Below, piece after piece: positions 18,714-24,847 of a stretch of 38,873 bases of DNA (within the stretch, counting starts at the first letter, position 1; every line of letters begins with the position of its first letter). Made by a program: the position numbers and the translations under genes. Source of the stretch: Pseudomonadota bacterium (GTDB lineage Bacteria; Pseudomonadota; Alphaproteobacteria; Acetobacterales; Acetobacteraceae); NCBI GenBank assembly GCA_019352115.1, contig JABBNW010000013.1, positions 1 through 38,873 of the forward strand, read 5' to 3'. The notes under the pieces are model-generated. The model saw nothing but the letters and a program-made list of their open reading frames with translations, was not told where the DNA came from and did no database searches.

Positions 18714-20449
18714 AGCCACCGGTCCCGGGCGTATCGGCGCCGGCGCACATGCCACCAAAGCTCGATTCTGCACGGAAACACGCTGATGATGCTCATCGCC
18801 TGCGGAAACCCACCCCTGAGATGAAAAACCAGACTTCCGCGGCGGCACTGGCGGCAGGGCCGCCGTCGGCGCCGGCACCGAGGCGCCGATCCGATGCCCG
18901 CGAGGTCGAGTTGAAGTTCCTCGTTACCGAAGCTGCGCTCAAGGCCGTGCAGCAATCCGCACTGTTCGGCAGTCCCACCCGCCGTCCCGCACAGCGACTG
19001 CGGTCCGTCTATTTCGATACCGAGCACGCGGATCTGTGGCGCCACCGTACGTTCCTGCGCGTGCGCGGCCAGCGAGGTGCGCGGCTGCTGGCATTGAAGG
19101 TTGACGGCGCCGATCCCACGAACCCCTTCCTGCGCCACGAGATCGAGGTGCCATCACCGTCCGCCGACCCAGATCCGGCGGCGCTGGGCGAGGCGGTCGC
19201 GGCCGAGATCGAACGTGTCATCGAGGGCCGGCCGCTGCTGCCGCGTTTCACGACCGATATCCGGCGCACGATGCACCGGGTCACGTTGGGGGGGAGTGAG
19301 ATCGAAGTGGCCTTCGATGCCGGATCGATCAGCGCCGGGGACGCCCGCGCTCCGGTGCGGGAGATCGAGCTGGAATTGAAGTCCGGCATTGCCGCGGATC
19401 TCTTCGGCCTTGGCCTTGCACTCACCGACGTAGCTCCCGTGCGCCTCGGCGTCTTGAGCAAGGCCGAGCGCGGCATGCTGCTGAGCACCGGCGGCAGCGT
19501 AGCCGAAGTGCGGGCGGACTCTCCGGTATCGGCGGATCATTCGGTGGATGACATCATCGGCGCTACGATCGGTGCCTGCATCCGGCAGTTCATCGGCAAC
19601 TGGCCAGCCTTCGAAATGTCTGTCGGACCCGAACCGGTGCACCAGATGCGGGTTTCGATGCGCCGCCTGCGGGCTGCGCTGGCGCTGTTCCAGAGGGAGT
19701 TTCCCTGCGTCGAGTTCTGCGTGCTGCGCGGCGATGCGAAGCGGATCGCATCGGCGATGGGCGAAGCGCGGAACTGGGACGTGTTCGCCGGGCTGGTCCA
19801 GTCGGGCCCCGGAGCGGTTTTCCAGGACGAGCGCGGCCTCGAGACATTGGCGGCGGCGTGTGAGACGCATCGCACTGCCGGATACGAAACGGTGGACGCG
19901 TTGCTCAAGCACGTCGCTACGACGCGCTTTGTCCTGTCGGCGCTCTCGTTTGTGGCGCGCCGCGGCTGGCGCAATACCGTTTCGGGAGCTGACCTGCCAC
20001 GCCTTTCCTCGCCCGCAGCCGGGTTCGCGGCGCTCAGCGTCGATCGACTGCACCACAAGGTGCGCAAGCGCGGCAGGCATATCCTCGAAATGCCTCCGGG
20101 CGAGCGCCACGAGCTCCGCGTGGCGCTGAAGCGGCTGCGCTATGCGACCGATTTCTTCGGGAGCCTGTTTTCGAATACATCCGCCGTCCGCACCTATGCA
20201 CGAGCAGCGGCAAGGCTCCAGGACGTGCTTGGCGTGTTCAACGACATGGTGATGGTGAGCGAACTGGTGCAGCGCCTGCAACTGGGCGGAGACCTGTCCG
20301 CGGTCCGTGCCGCCGGTATCGTGATCGGATGGTACGGCCGCGCCGGCCAGGCCGACAACCGCGAGCTGCGCGACGCCTGGGACAGCTTCCGCAAGGCCAA
20401 GCCGTTCTGGAAGGAGGCTCTGCGAGCAGCCGCGGCTCCCGTTCGCTGA
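18710..20449 (+). CDS. CYTH-CHAD domain protein, likely inorganic triphosphatase/polyphosphate-binding
   Basis: The protein is 579 aa from the ATG overlapping the upstream stop. A later in-frame ATG at 18821 would give 542 aa and put the catalytic motif nearer the N-terminus, as is usual. The CYTH domain has the ExExK metal motif (REVELKF), SVYFDTEHADLW, FLRVRGQRG, and the paired acidic strand VREIELELKSG. The CHAD domain follows, with repeated His/Arg-rich helices (VHQMRVSMRRLRAAL, and RHELRVALKRLRYATDFF). Known CYTH enzymes cleave triphosphate or make cAMP, and CHAD domains bind polyphosphate. Products with both are usually called inorganic triphosphatases (YgiF-like). The substrate is not proven here. 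Confidence 0.9.
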   Translation: MKPPVPGVSAPAHMPPKLDSARKHADDAHRLRKPTPEMKNQTSAAALAAGPPSAPAPRRRSDAREVELKFLVTEAALKAVQQSALFGSPTRRPAQRLRSVYFDTEHADLWRHRTFLRVRGQRGARLLALKVDGADPTNPFLRHEIEVPSPSADPDPAALGEAVAAEIERVIEGRPLLPRFTTDIRRTMHRVTLGGSEIEVAFDAGSISAGDARAPVREIELELKSGIAADLFGLGLALTDVAPVRLGVLSKAERGMLLSTGGSVAEVRADSPVSADHSVDDIIGATIGACIRQFIGNWPAFEMSVGPEPVHQMRVSMRRLRAALALFQREFPCVEFCVLRGDAKRIASAMGEARNWDVFAGLVQSGPGAVFQDERGLETLAAACETHRTAGYETVDALLKHVATTRFVLSALSFVARRGWRNTVSGADLPRLSSPAAGFAALSVDRLHHKVRKRGRHILEMPPGERHELRVALKRLRYATDFFGSLFSNTSAVRTYARAAARLQDVLGVFNDMVMVSELVQRLQLGGDLSAVRAAGIVIGWYGRAGQADNRELRDAWDSFRKAKPFWKEALRAAAAPVR

Positions 20450-20479
20450 CGCGGTCAGCCGTCGCAGACCCATCCCATG

Positions 20480-20572
20480 CGCACCAATCCCGACGGCCGC
20501 GGTATTGTCTTTGAGTTGGTCGATGCTCCTGGCGCCGAGGATGGTGCTGGTGACTTCAGGTTTTGCTAGCAG
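20480..20572 (-). pseudogene. Aldo/keto reductase C-terminal remnant
   Basis: On the minus strand the stretch reads LLAKPEVTSTILGARSIDQL followed by K-D-N-T-A-A-V-G. This is the strongly conserved cofactor-binding end of aldo/keto reductases (family form: LL-x-x-P-x-V-T-S-x-I-x-G-A-R). A TGA lies immediately upstream in frame, and the rest of the gene is missing where IS66-type sequence begins at about 20589. I read this as the end of a gene lost to IS-mediated deletion. Confidence 0.65.
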
Positions 20573-20671
20573 TCAGTCGAGATTCTACGTAACCCTCTGC
20601 CGGAGGCCGCCTGGATGCGACGCCGATCGCCACCTTAAGTAGATGTTTAAGTTGGCGCTTGAGGTGTGTTG

Positions 20672-21082
20672 ATGGACGGAGTGGTCGAGATCATCACGGG
20701 GCGGGAGCGCCGCCGTCGGTGGAGCACGGCGGAGAAGCTGCGTCTGGTGGCGGAGACCCACGAGGCTGGCACGACGATCGGCGCCGTGGCGGCACGCCAC
20801 AGCGTCTGCGAGAGCCTGTTGTTCACCTGGCGGCGACAGGTGCGCGAGGGAGTGCTGACCGCGGCGCGGACGCCGGTGTTCATGCCGGTGGACATGAGCG
20901 ATGCGGCGCCGATGGCGTCAACGGTGCCCGCGCCACAAGCGGCGCGCCCATCTCCTCCGGCGCGACCCGCCACGCCGTCCGGCCTGATCGAGATCGAGCT
21001 GGGCAACGGACGACAGTTGCGCGTCGGCAGCGATGTGAACCTGGCCGCCTTGCGGCGCGTGCTGGCGGCGCTGCGCGAATGA
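20672..21082 (+). CDS. IS66 accessory protein (TnpA-type, HTH)
   Basis: This 136-aa protein has an N-terminal HTH domain of the transposase_8/IS66 Orf1 type (RRWSTAEKLRLVAETHEAGT, then H-S-V-C-E-S-L-L-F-T-W-R-R-Q). The tail is Pro/Ala-rich and ends in an I-E-L-G-N-G-R strand and a short helix (LAALRRVLAALRE). It overlaps tnpB by ATGA, the usual IS66 coupling. It is intact but stranded, since the large transposase gene is absent. Confidence 0.85.
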   Translation: MDGVVEIITGRERRRRWSTAEKLRLVAETHEAGTTIGAVAARHSVCESLLFTWRRQVREGVLTAARTPVFMPVDMSDAAPMASTVPAPQAARPSPPARPATPSGLIEIELGNGRQLRVGSDVNLAALRRVLAALRE

Positions 21083-21396
21083 TCCCGATCGCGTCGGGCG
21101 TTCGGGTATGGCTCGCGAGCGGCCATACGGACATGCGTCGTGGGATGCGGGGTTTGGCCTTGCAGGTGCAGGAGGGTCTCGGGCGCGACCCGTTCGCGGG
21201 CGACGTCTACGTCTTCCGTGGCCGCCACAGTTCGCTGATCAAGGCGATCTGGCACGACGGCATCGGCTTGTCGCTGTATGCCAAGCGCCTGGACCGCGGC
21301 CGCTTCATCTGGCCGCAGACTGTGGATGGCGCCGTGGCGCTGACCGCCGCCCAGATGGGCTATCTGCTCGAGGGAATCGATTGGCGGAACCCGCAA
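21079..21396 (+). pseudogene. IS66 TnpB fragment
   Basis: The sequence opens MIPIASGVRVWLASGHTDMR and continues with G-R-D-P-F-A-G-D-V-Y-V-F-R-G-R, IKAIWHDGIGLSLYAKRLDR, W-P-Q-T and LEGIDWRNPQ. That is the full IS66 Orf2/TnpB core. The normal last few residues are replaced: after the Gln codon at 21394-21396 the frame continues to 21720 through unrelated IS sequence. The protein would carry a foreign C-terminus of about 108 residues. Function is unlikely without TnpC. Confidence 0.75.
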
Positions 21397-21427
21397 TCTC
21401 GCGCGACAAACAACCTGAGAATCCGTA

Positions 21428-21486
21428 TTGCCTCATCCAGGAATGCTCCCGAGCGGGCCGAGCATTGCCTCGCCAGGATGCTCCCG
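21428..21486 (+). repeat. Left terminal repeats of the rve-type IS
   Basis: TTGCCTC-N-TGCTCCCG units occur twice: 21428-21451 (TTGCCTCATCCAGGAATGCT, then CCCG) and 21465-21486 (TTGCCTCGCCAGGATGCTCC, then CG). Matching units occur inverted at 23699-23721 and 23664-23686 on the other side of the transposase gene. Both pairs point inward, so they mark the two ends of the element. The 330 bp between this end and the transposase stop holds no gene I can recognise. Confidence 0.65.
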
Positions 21487-21814
21487 TCGCCGCGTCACTT
21501 TGTCAATCAGCGCCCAATCCGCTCGCTCAGGTGGCGGCCGTGCCAAACGCGCTTTCCTGTTCGATCGGCGATCCTGCTTTCCCGTCCCGACCTGGCGCTG
21601 CCGGAGCCGCGGCGCGCAACGGAGGGGATGGGAGGAGCGGAGCCACCCGGAGCCACGCGCAGCGCGCTCTTTCGCGCGAGCATGGCGAGGATGGCGAGCA
21701 CCGGACCTTCCCCGAAGTGAGCACCGTGGCACACTCCGCACCAGTCGGAGGACCAGGCCGTCGCCGCTCCACTTATAAGCGTTACGTCACGAAACCTGGA
21801 CCATAAGAACAGGG

Positions 21815-23638
21815 TCAGGTGCTCGAGGACACCGATGCCCGCTCTGGCGTTTCTCCCGCAGCTTCGGCCCCAAACACCATTTTATGTGCCATCTCACGCC
21901 GCCACTCCTTCAACCGGCGTTGCAGCGTCCGCAGTTGCCCATCAGGGTAGACGCCGGGCTGCTCTGTTTGCAGCCGCTCAAACAATTCGCGCGATGTCCG
22001 CCATGGCTCGGCCTCGAACCATTCATGCAGCAGCGCCGTCACCGTCACGAACGGGTTGGGACGCCGGCGGCCGCGCCGGGCCTTCTCCTTCGGCTTGTTG
22101 GTCGGACGCACTTCATCTTCCCGCCACGCGGTGCGCAGTCCGGAGAGGAATTGCTCCATCGTCGGCGCGATGGGTGCAACCGCTTCGCCCGACGTCGGAC
22201 GGTCGGCGATTTCAACCAGCTCTTGCTGACTCGCGCGGATCGTTCGCAATAACTGGACAGGGTCCAGAGTGCCGTGGATCGCCGTCACTTGGCGCCGCAC
22301 CTCCTCGCTGGTCCGCGTATCCGCCAGCAGCCGCTGATAAGGCGTGGCCGGCGGGTGGTACTTTTTGGCTCCTCGCTGTTTGGTGTGGGTGGGGCGCTCC
22401 CATCCCACCCAATTCTGTGGCGTTTCTTGGTTCGGCTGAGCGCCGTTTCTCCGTCCCGGCCTGACATCCCCAGGGCGCCGAGCGGAGCCGCGGTCAAGGA
22501 TGGCCCGCCCCTTCGCGGGCCACCGCGCCCTTGCGCGGCGCGTAGCGTCCTTGACGGCGGCGAGCACGGCGCCAAGCTCGGGCAGGTCGGGCACCCTGCC
22601 CCGCGCACCTGCCGAGCGGACCGCTACCCACTCCAAACAGCGAAGAACCTACTTTTTCTTGACCTTCGCACCATCGCGAGCCTCCCCGGCCAGCTTGAAT
22701 GACGGCTGGAAGAAGTTCACGAACAACCGCAAGGCTGTATACAGCCGCGCCAGGGCCGCCGCCGCTTCCAGTCCCTCATAGCGCCGGTAGCCGACAGTGC
22801 GTCTGACCACCGCGCCGTTCTTCTGCTCGACCCAGGCCTGATCGTTCTTGCGATAGGGACGGCAGCGCGTGAACACCAAGCCCGCTTCCTCGCAATACGA
22901 TTTGACGGTCTCGTTCATGAATACGCTGTCGTTGTCCGTGTCGAACCCGAGCAGCGCGAATGGCATCCGCTTCCGAACCTCGCTCAGGACTTCGGTCAGC
23001 AGACGCTGCTCTCGCACCAGCAGTGGCGCACATTCCGTCCAGCCCGTCGCGATGTCCGTCAGCGTCAACGTCTGCACGAAGCTGCGCTTCGCCGTCGGTC
23101 CGCTATGCGCCACCAGATCCGCCTCGACGAACCCAGGCGCCGGATTGTCCCAGCCGTCAAAGGTTCGTACCGGAACGCTGCGCCGGATCGCGGCCGATGG
23201 TGGCGCGTGACGGCGCTTTCGCCCGCCTCCCGGCTCCCGGGCCTCACGCAGCGCCCGATCCATCGTGGCGGCGCTCATCGCCAACAAACCCACGCGAACC
23301 TTCGGCGTGAGTTGAAGGTGGCCGTGCCGTTCCATCGCCTCGATCAGGATCGGCACCAGCGCCCGCAGCCGCTTGCCGCAGACCCGATCGGAGGCTTCCC
23401 AGATCACGACCAGCGCCTCGGGCACCGCATCATTATATAAGCGCCGCCCAGGCCGGGGGCCCGACCTCTCGCCAAGCTGACCGGCGTGCAGCAGACGCAT
23501 CGCGTGCTTGCGATGTAAGCCACTCACCGCCGCAAATTCGTCCAGGATGCGGCCGCGCTCCTTCCGGTTGCTCGAAGCGTAACGCCCGGCCAACGCAACC
23601 ACCAACTCGTCTCGTGTCGCCATGCTGATCTGCCCCAT
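21815..23638 (-). pseudogene. Transposase with rve/DDE integrase core, split by a 283-bp insertion
   Basis: Reading 23638 down to 22650 and then 22358 down to 21815 restores one frame of 510 codons. The break is at V-K-K-K|Y-H-P-P-A-T-P. The N-terminal HTH region reads RKERGRILDEFAAVSGLHRK. The DDE core shows E-A-D-L-V-A-H-S-G, LGFDTDNDSVFMNE and KNDQAWVEQKNGAVVRR. The C-terminal part ends QLRTLQRRLKEWRREMAHKM. This is an integrase-core transposase of the IS481/ISNCY-like type; the exact family is uncertain. As it stands translation ends at the TAG at 22649-22651, just before the insertion, so only the N-terminal two thirds with the DDE core would be made. Confidence 0.85.
22359..22657. mobile_element. 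283-bp non-autonomous element (MITE-like) with 8-bp target duplication
   Basis: The element is 22367-22649, flanked by TACTTTTT at 22359-22366 and 22650-22657. Its left end reads GGCTCCTCGCTGTTTGG and its right end, inverted, GGTTCTTCGCTGTTTGG. The ends match at 21 of the first 24 positions. Removing the element plus one copy of the duplication exactly restores the host transposase frame. It encodes no protein I recognise, but is rich in short inverted repeats (GTCAAGGA and TCCTTGAC, CCCGC and GCGGG). The 8-bp duplication and the GG-TCTTCG-type ends suggest mobilisation by an ISL3-like transposase; that assignment is an inference. Confidence 0.9.
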
Positions 23639-23663
23639 GTTCGCCCCCCCGACGCATACCGGT

Positions 23664-23721
23664 GGGGAGCAGGTTAAATGAGGCAACAGGTCGGCATCCG
23701 GGAGCATTTCAGGCGAGGCAA
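23664..23721 (-). repeat. Right terminal repeats of the rve-type IS
   Basis: On the minus strand TTGCCTCATTTAACCTGCTC (then CCC) lies at 23664-23686 and TTGCCTCGCCTGAAATGCTC (then CCG) at 23699-23721. They mirror the two units at 21428-21486. The transposase start is about 26 bp inside the inner unit. Together the four units define an element of roughly 2.3 kb including the inserted 283 bp. Confidence 0.65.
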
Positions 23722-23777
23722 TGCGAGGGTTTCCCGGTCATCGGGGAGCCCTTCATGCCCGGCCGCCACATCAACGA

Positions 23778-24479
23778 TCACCGGAAGGAGCTGTCCATGA
23801 AACATCGGCAGAACGACGGCGTGGCCGTCGCGCCCCGAAGACGCAGCCGACCGACGTTGAACTGCCCCTTGCAGATCCGTCGCAGCAGTTCGATCCCGGC
23901 TATGGTGATCGCCGCGGTCTTGAACCGCTTGAACCCGAGCATCGGACCGATCCGCGACTTCACGCCCCGATGGTCCTGCTCGATGAGGTTGTTCAGGTAC
24001 TTCGACGATCGCAGCTTCGTGTCAGCAGGCAGTTCACCGTCAGCCTTCATCTCGCGCACGGCGCGGTGCGATGCGGCATAGCCATCTAACGTGACGGTCC
24101 GTGGACCCGATCCCTGACTCTTGATCGCCTTGCGAAAGAACGCCTTGGCCGCGGCAACGTCGCGCTTTGGGCTGAGTCGAAAGTCGACGGTGTTCCCGGC
24201 GCGATCAACCGCCCGGTAGAGATAGACCCATTCGCCGCGAACCTTCACGTAAGTCTCGTCCACACGCCACGACGCTCCGGCCGGCTGCGCACAGCAGTCC
24301 CAGCGGCGCTCGAACTCCGGCGCATAATGATAAACCCAACGCATGATCGCGGTGTGGGCCATCGACAGGTTACGCTCCTCCATCATCTCCACCAGATCCC
24401 TGAAGCTGAGCTTGAAGCGCAGATACCACCGCACGCACAGGATGATGATCACGCGGTCGAAGTTCCGCCCATCGAACAT
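23778..24479 (-). CDS. IS6-family transposase
   Basis: This is a 233-aa transposase from the ATG complementary to 24477-24479, the normal IS6/IS26 length. The opening is MFDGRNFDRVIIILCVRWYL, then L-S-F-R-D-L-V-E-M-M-E-E-R. DDE residues are visible in WRVDETYVKVRGEW, VTLDGYAASHRAV and LNNLIEQDHRGVKSR. The gene looks intact. The frame extends 66 codons upstream without an IS6-like sequence, so I exclude that part. I could not identify matching inverted ends around it with confidence. Confidence 0.88.
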   Translation of the reverse strand: MFDGRNFDRVIIILCVRWYLRFKLSFRDLVEMMEERNLSMAHTAIMRWVYHYAPEFERRWDCCAQPAGASWRVDETYVKVRGEWVYLYRAVDRAGNTVDFRLSPKRDVAAAKAFFRKAIKSQGSGPRTVTLDGYAASHRAVREMKADGELPADTKLRSSKYLNNLIEQDHRGVKSRIGPMLGFKRFKTAAITIAGIELLRRICKGQFNVGRLRLRGATATPSFCRCFMDSSFR

Positions 24480-24847
24480 CTCATCCAAACCCAGGAACTT
24501 GGCCCTCGCGCCGCCCTCAAAGCTATCGGTTGGCCCGACACGATACCCGAGCCGCCATTTTGCTCCAGAGCCAGCTTCACACCGATGGACTTTTACACCG
24601 GCCCAGCCGGACCACCCGGCCGCTTCACTGAGGGATTTTATCTCCGGCGCGTACACTTCGCGCCTGCGCCAGCCCAACCCAATCGGGGCCGCAGCGGCCC
24701 CCCCCAGCGCGCCGAAAGTTACCGGCAGCTATCACTCGGCCGCCGATAGTCGATTCATTTTCCGCCTCTCAGTCTGTCAACAGTGCCGGCGGGCCGGCAA
24801 CGCTCCAGGAGCGCCCCGATCGTGGTCGAGGCCGCGTCGGCCCGCGG
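24480..24847. other. Gene-free stretch between the IS6-type transposase and the ABC operon
   Basis: I see no supported gene here. The first part is open in the transposase frame but has no recognisable domain. A GC-rich block at about 24695-24710 (GGGGCCGCAGCGGCCCC) can form a hairpin. It lies downstream of the ABC operon's last gene and could act as its terminator, but it has no T-run. The IS end must lie somewhere in this stretch. Confidence 0.35.

Follow-up and report, generated by a model that had tools for sequence, protein, structure and literature searches.

The window, a 38,873-nucleotide stretch of DNA from an Acetobacteraceae draft genome, carries a minus-strand transposase gene that is split by a non-autonomous insert. 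The features of the locus, in window coordinates, are:

21815..22366, minus strand: 3' part of the interrupted transposase gene, one duplication copy included
22359..22366, no strand: target duplication TACTTTTT, left copy, 8 bp
22367..22649, no strand: non-autonomous MITE with ISL3-type ends, 283 bp
22367..22390, plus strand: left terminal inverted repeat, GGCTCCTCGCTGTTTGGTGTGGGT
22420..22592, plus strand: structured dispersed repeat (the core), element positions 54-226
22626..22649, minus strand: right terminal inverted repeat, reading inward GGTTCTTCGCTGTTTGGAGTGGGT
22650..22657, no strand: target duplication TACTTTTT, right copy, 8 bp
22658..23638, minus strand: 5' part of the interrupted ISNCY-type transposase gene, with an integrase core and a weak rve match

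The two arms of the insert are identical at 21/24 positions and are abutted by perfect 8-bp direct duplications, as the sequence-only reading had reported for a 283-bp insertion at this place. When the whole window was scanned for elements of 100-1000 bp, arms matching at 21/24 positions or better were obtained for 6 placements in ~35 million, and the sole placement accompanied by an 8-bp direct repeat was the 22367-22649 insert. The coding frames overlapping the 283 bp are chance frames only and a transposase gene is absent, again as described earlier. The interior, which had been noted as full of inverted repeats, indeed folds as RNA at -162.1 kcal/mol (z = -5.9 versus shuffles). The earlier reading missed that the insert consists, over ~60% of its length, of a distinct structured repeat, the core, and not of random filler.

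Removal of the insert together with one duplicate leaves a single minus-strand open frame of 543 codons, of which 510, the frame length stated earlier, are read from the ATG at 23638 until a stop that ends at 21815; without rejoining, the upstream part of the frame terminates at the junction. The two halves of the gene return weak library matches only (rve, IS481 and IS21). Intact homologues, annotated as ISNCY family or DDE-type transposases, span the junction in one alignment, and a Roseomonas mucosa homologue annotated as an ISNCY family transposase matches at 74.5% over residues 1-499, across the junction. The interrupted gene lies in an insertion sequence cluster, flanked by frames that by eye resemble IS66 TnpA/TnpB genes (20666-21400) and by an intact-looking IS6 transposase gene (23778-24677; NCBIfam, 237.8 bits) located ~1.1 kb from the insert.

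Further copies of the insert are present elsewhere in the host genome (4.76 Mb in 385 contigs, 94.5% complete). Two full copies of 291 bp, at C369:2148-2438 and C123:1939-2229, are each ~89% identical to the window element and are enclosed by perfect 8-bp duplications (GAATTATT and GAGATTTC, respectively). Together with the window element, three full copies in the host have perfect and mutually different 8-bp duplications, which answers the check proposed earlier, a host search for copies of about 283 bp with such duplications. Two other copies, one of 282 bp (C379) and one of 200 bp with an internal deletion (C331), have no duplication, and the host total is five element copies plus end remnants on C159 and C232. 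Pieces resembling the window element also occur in another genome of the same genus (G001). We considered the end matches on C232, C75 and C159 as candidates for the missing autonomous element and saw no ISL3 transposase at any of them. On C232 (L022 61-200), the end remnant, of ISL3 type, lies directly against a truncated frame which, judged by eye, looks like a HigB/HigA toxin-antitoxin pair.

The proposed resemblance of the ends to those of ISL3-like elements holds in the family, where the same end type bounds ISL3 transposase genes. A full insertion sequence with the same ends and a transposase gene, which the same check had sought in the host, is found in Acetobacteraceae relatives and not in the host draft. 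A 1397-bp element (G136:C440) has the ends GGCTCCTCGCTGTTTCAGGTGGGTAGG and GGCTCCTCGCTGTCTGGTGTGGGTAG and an ISL3 transposase open reading frame of 415 aa. Another genome (G313) contains 27 + 38 = 65 end matches, and the contig-end copies examined (GGCTCCTCGCTGTTTGGAGTGGGT) begin in the C-terminus of an ISL3 transposase that shares 89% identity with its G136 counterpart. An ISL3 transposase is attached in the same manner in G667, where the end is slightly different, and truncated ISL3 copies with the same end type occur in an uncultured Rhodopila and in a Baikal Acetobacteraceae MAG. Outside the family, ends of this kind bound a 1342-bp element on a Thermoplasmata MAG contig; its 418-aa protein is clearly an ISL3 transposase, with an NCBIfam transpos_ISL3 score of 342.8 bits (cut-off 180). 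Searches of the host draft (385 contigs, 94.5% complete) and of five drafts from the same genus, the second run without a positive control, detected no ISL3 transposase. When the insert arms are compared with a full ISL3 element, the match ends after ~30 bp.

The exact 24-base end pattern is present at 49 loci in the GTDB collection, many of which are elements of 113-512 bp, too short for a transposase, with interiors that fall into several unrelated groups. Eight such short elements have a perfect 8-bp duplication (four in an Acidobacteria MAG, three in Chthoniobacter flavus and one in Candidatus Sulfopaludibacter). The occurrence of the 24-bp ends on short elements with varied interiors in Acidobacteria, Verrucomicrobia, Deltaproteobacteria and Acetobacteraceae, a list of phyla that is provisional as MAG contigs may be misassigned, suggests that this ISL3 end type is widely shared.

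The window element belongs to an already published kind, the ISL3-type MITE. A 187-nt ISL3-type MITE of Microcystis aeruginosa PCC 7806 (PMC11448079) resembles our insert in the absence of a transposase, in imperfect ends that start with GGCTCTTCG and match ISL3 elements, in its 8-nt duplications and stem-loop interior, and in its location inside a gene. The two differ in organism and length, and the ends of the Microcystis element are reported over only 9 nt, the likeness being one of description (PMC11448079). The window element is therefore a further example and not a new kind. The nearest named full elements that we saw are ISTfe1 and ISAtc1 (ISL3 family, Acidithiobacillus), with ends GGCTCTTCG...GTGGGTAG (GGCTCTTCGTCGGATTGAGTGGGTAG and GGCTCTTCGTCATTTCAAGTGGGTAG in ISTfe1) and a transposase ~55% identical to the G136 ISL3 transposase. 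Unlike the insert, they are full-length insertion sequences, the middle of their ends differs from the CGCTGTTTGG motif, and no core was noted in them.

The best-conserved part of the core (22452-22578) scores 122.7 bits with our covariance model R1, built from an alignment that leaves out one copy (G033 L046) with an unalignable 3' half. The consensus fold derived from 14 copies comprises 33 pairs arranged in five helices. In nine pairs both partners have changed, pairing holds in 95.9% of cells, none of 500 shuffles reaches the observed covariation score and sliding the partners abolishes it, counts that are weakened by the relatedness of the copies and by the derivation of the structure from the same alignment. 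The pairing of the core is supported by these compensatory changes. The covariance model detects the core in 60/299 family genomes (E <= 1e-8) and, within a class-wide draw of 289 genomes, in 3/288 others besides the host. Copies devoid of the ISL3-type ends exist in the host genome (C172, 92%) and elsewhere in the genus and family. A GC-rich segment at 21555-21720 looks by eye like a diverged core copy (CCCGTCCCGACCTG), and R1 gave no report there.

We rejected the core as a known Rfam family since nothing reached the gathering score over 20400-24800. Our searches found no published name or function for the repeat, no match in phage records and, in an all-against-all comparison of flanking frames, no protein regularly linked to it. 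The core is dispersed, palindromic and associated with insertion sequences, as are the REP/BIME palindromic repeats, which include the CGTC-REPs of Alphaproteobacteria (PMC3733652) and among which REPs are known as insertion sequence targets (PMC1525189). It spans ~127-170 nt with multi-helix pairing, whereas REPs measure 20-40 bp (PMC3733652). Identity with the CGTC-REPs was likewise rejected, as the core has 33 pairs in five helices, whereas a CGTC-REP is a CGTC-tagged unit of 20-40 bp whose stem measures 8-9 bp; CGTC-REPs are also reported to be missing from Acetobacteraceae (PMC3733652).

Cores recognized by R1 lie in or beside ISL3, IS110, IS3-like and 1.04-kb elements (L180, L184, L209, L012, L204, L226 and L230), in Acetobacteraceae as well as in certain other Alphaproteobacteria. 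Complete ISL3 elements with other ends hold the core between their left end and the transposase gene in Acidiphilium pACRY01, where the target site duplication is ACATTTAT, and in G082. A ~1039-bp repeated element containing the core in G180 (L207-L213) has 37-bp perfect inverted ends (TGTTGGCGGCGGTGAGAATCCGCGC); no transposase was recognized in it, and its seven compared chromosomal copies are 100% identical over ~816 bp. In G007 and G005, the core sits beside apparent IS3 pieces, as judged by sequence reading and matches to annotated IS3 genes.

At 8/8 loci with a detected IS110-family transposase gene, the 3' end of that gene faces the core, and seven of these genes are co-oriented with it; on annotated plasmids, IS110 lies on the same side of the core, its orientation being reversed in Sinorhizobium and Azospirillum. 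We treat this association as a lead and not as a test because the IS110 query proteins were picked for their nearness to cores. Comparison of two Sinorhizobium loci (L230 2454-4037 versus L236) delineates a precise ~1.58-kb insertion, GCTTGTATGGGG...CCCCATAGCA, which comprises the core and an IS110-type gene, the empty site being on another plasmid of the same strain in a stretch that is otherwise continuous. Within this insertion, TCTGGAAA and GTCATGTA (8 nt each, at L230 2797 and 2821) correspond to the target flanks, possibly as guide sequences. It is unlikely that the core itself serves as guide RNA for the IS110-type element of Sinorhizobium, as these sole target-like matches fall outside it. 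The core could be an IS110 landing site because IS110-type transposase genes face it with their 3' end. We tentatively propose, with slightly less than even confidence, that the core is an undescribed structured-repeat family of Acetobacteraceae, rarer in other Alphaproteobacteria, that is carried or flanked by unrelated elements, possibly as an RNA-guided IS110 landing site and an ISL3 passenger.

We interpret the insert as very probably an ISL3-type MITE moved in trans. An ISL3-family transposase would recognize the GGYTCYTCGCTGTTTGG...GTGGGTRG ends and carry the insert to an AT-rich 8-bp target, which would be duplicated upon insertion; landing in the transposase gene of another insertion sequence would have inactivated that gene. 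The ends, the duplications, the multiple copies in one genome, the autonomous elements of the family and the shared interior repeat are all directly observed. We infer movement in trans because neither the host draft nor its five congeners yielded an ISL3 transposase. The core occurs apart from these ends, both in the host and in other genomes, and adjoins several unrelated transposase types, as would fit a mobile unit consisting of the inner palindromic repeat with incidental ISL3-like ends. For the 22367-22649 insertion, however, this account is already contradicted by the position of the duplications, which in three copies abut the ISL3-type ends and not the core, and the same ends enclose unrelated interiors with 8-bp duplications in other phyla; we consider it highly improbable. 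The mover could also belong to another 8-bp-duplicating family, such as the neighboring IS6 transposase (23778-24677). IS6 elements likewise produce 8-bp duplications, and the gene is close by and looks intact, but these specific 24-bp ends sit on elements that encode an ISL3 transposase, making another family a barely credible mover.

Regarding the origin of the ISL3-type MITE, we infer that, most likely, an ISL3 element with the core already beside its left end gave rise to it by losing its transposase gene through deletion. This route is the likelier one because ISL3 elements hold the core at the corresponding place and because an ISL3 remnant in G019 combines the core's 5' half and the C-terminus of a transposase with a right end and a similar left end. 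It falls short of proof because none of the ISL3 elements found combines exactly these ends with a complete core. Alternatively, a host repeat may have been captured by two ISL3 ends on either side; this possible but distinctly less probable origin would accord with the presence of end-less copies among the closest relatives of the core (C172 in the host, 92%, and one in the congener G004, 88%) and with the lack of a nearby ISL3 transposase at most examined cores. Against capture, other genera have ISL3 elements that bear the core in this same position, next to the left end. A tree of cores leaves deletion and capture unseparated.

As a MITE, the insert is ordinary, the ISL3-type kind having at least one published description. 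The 24-bp ends that it shares across phyla point to an ISL3 end type of wide distribution, and the core family provides a concrete case for asking what folded repeats do for mobile elements.
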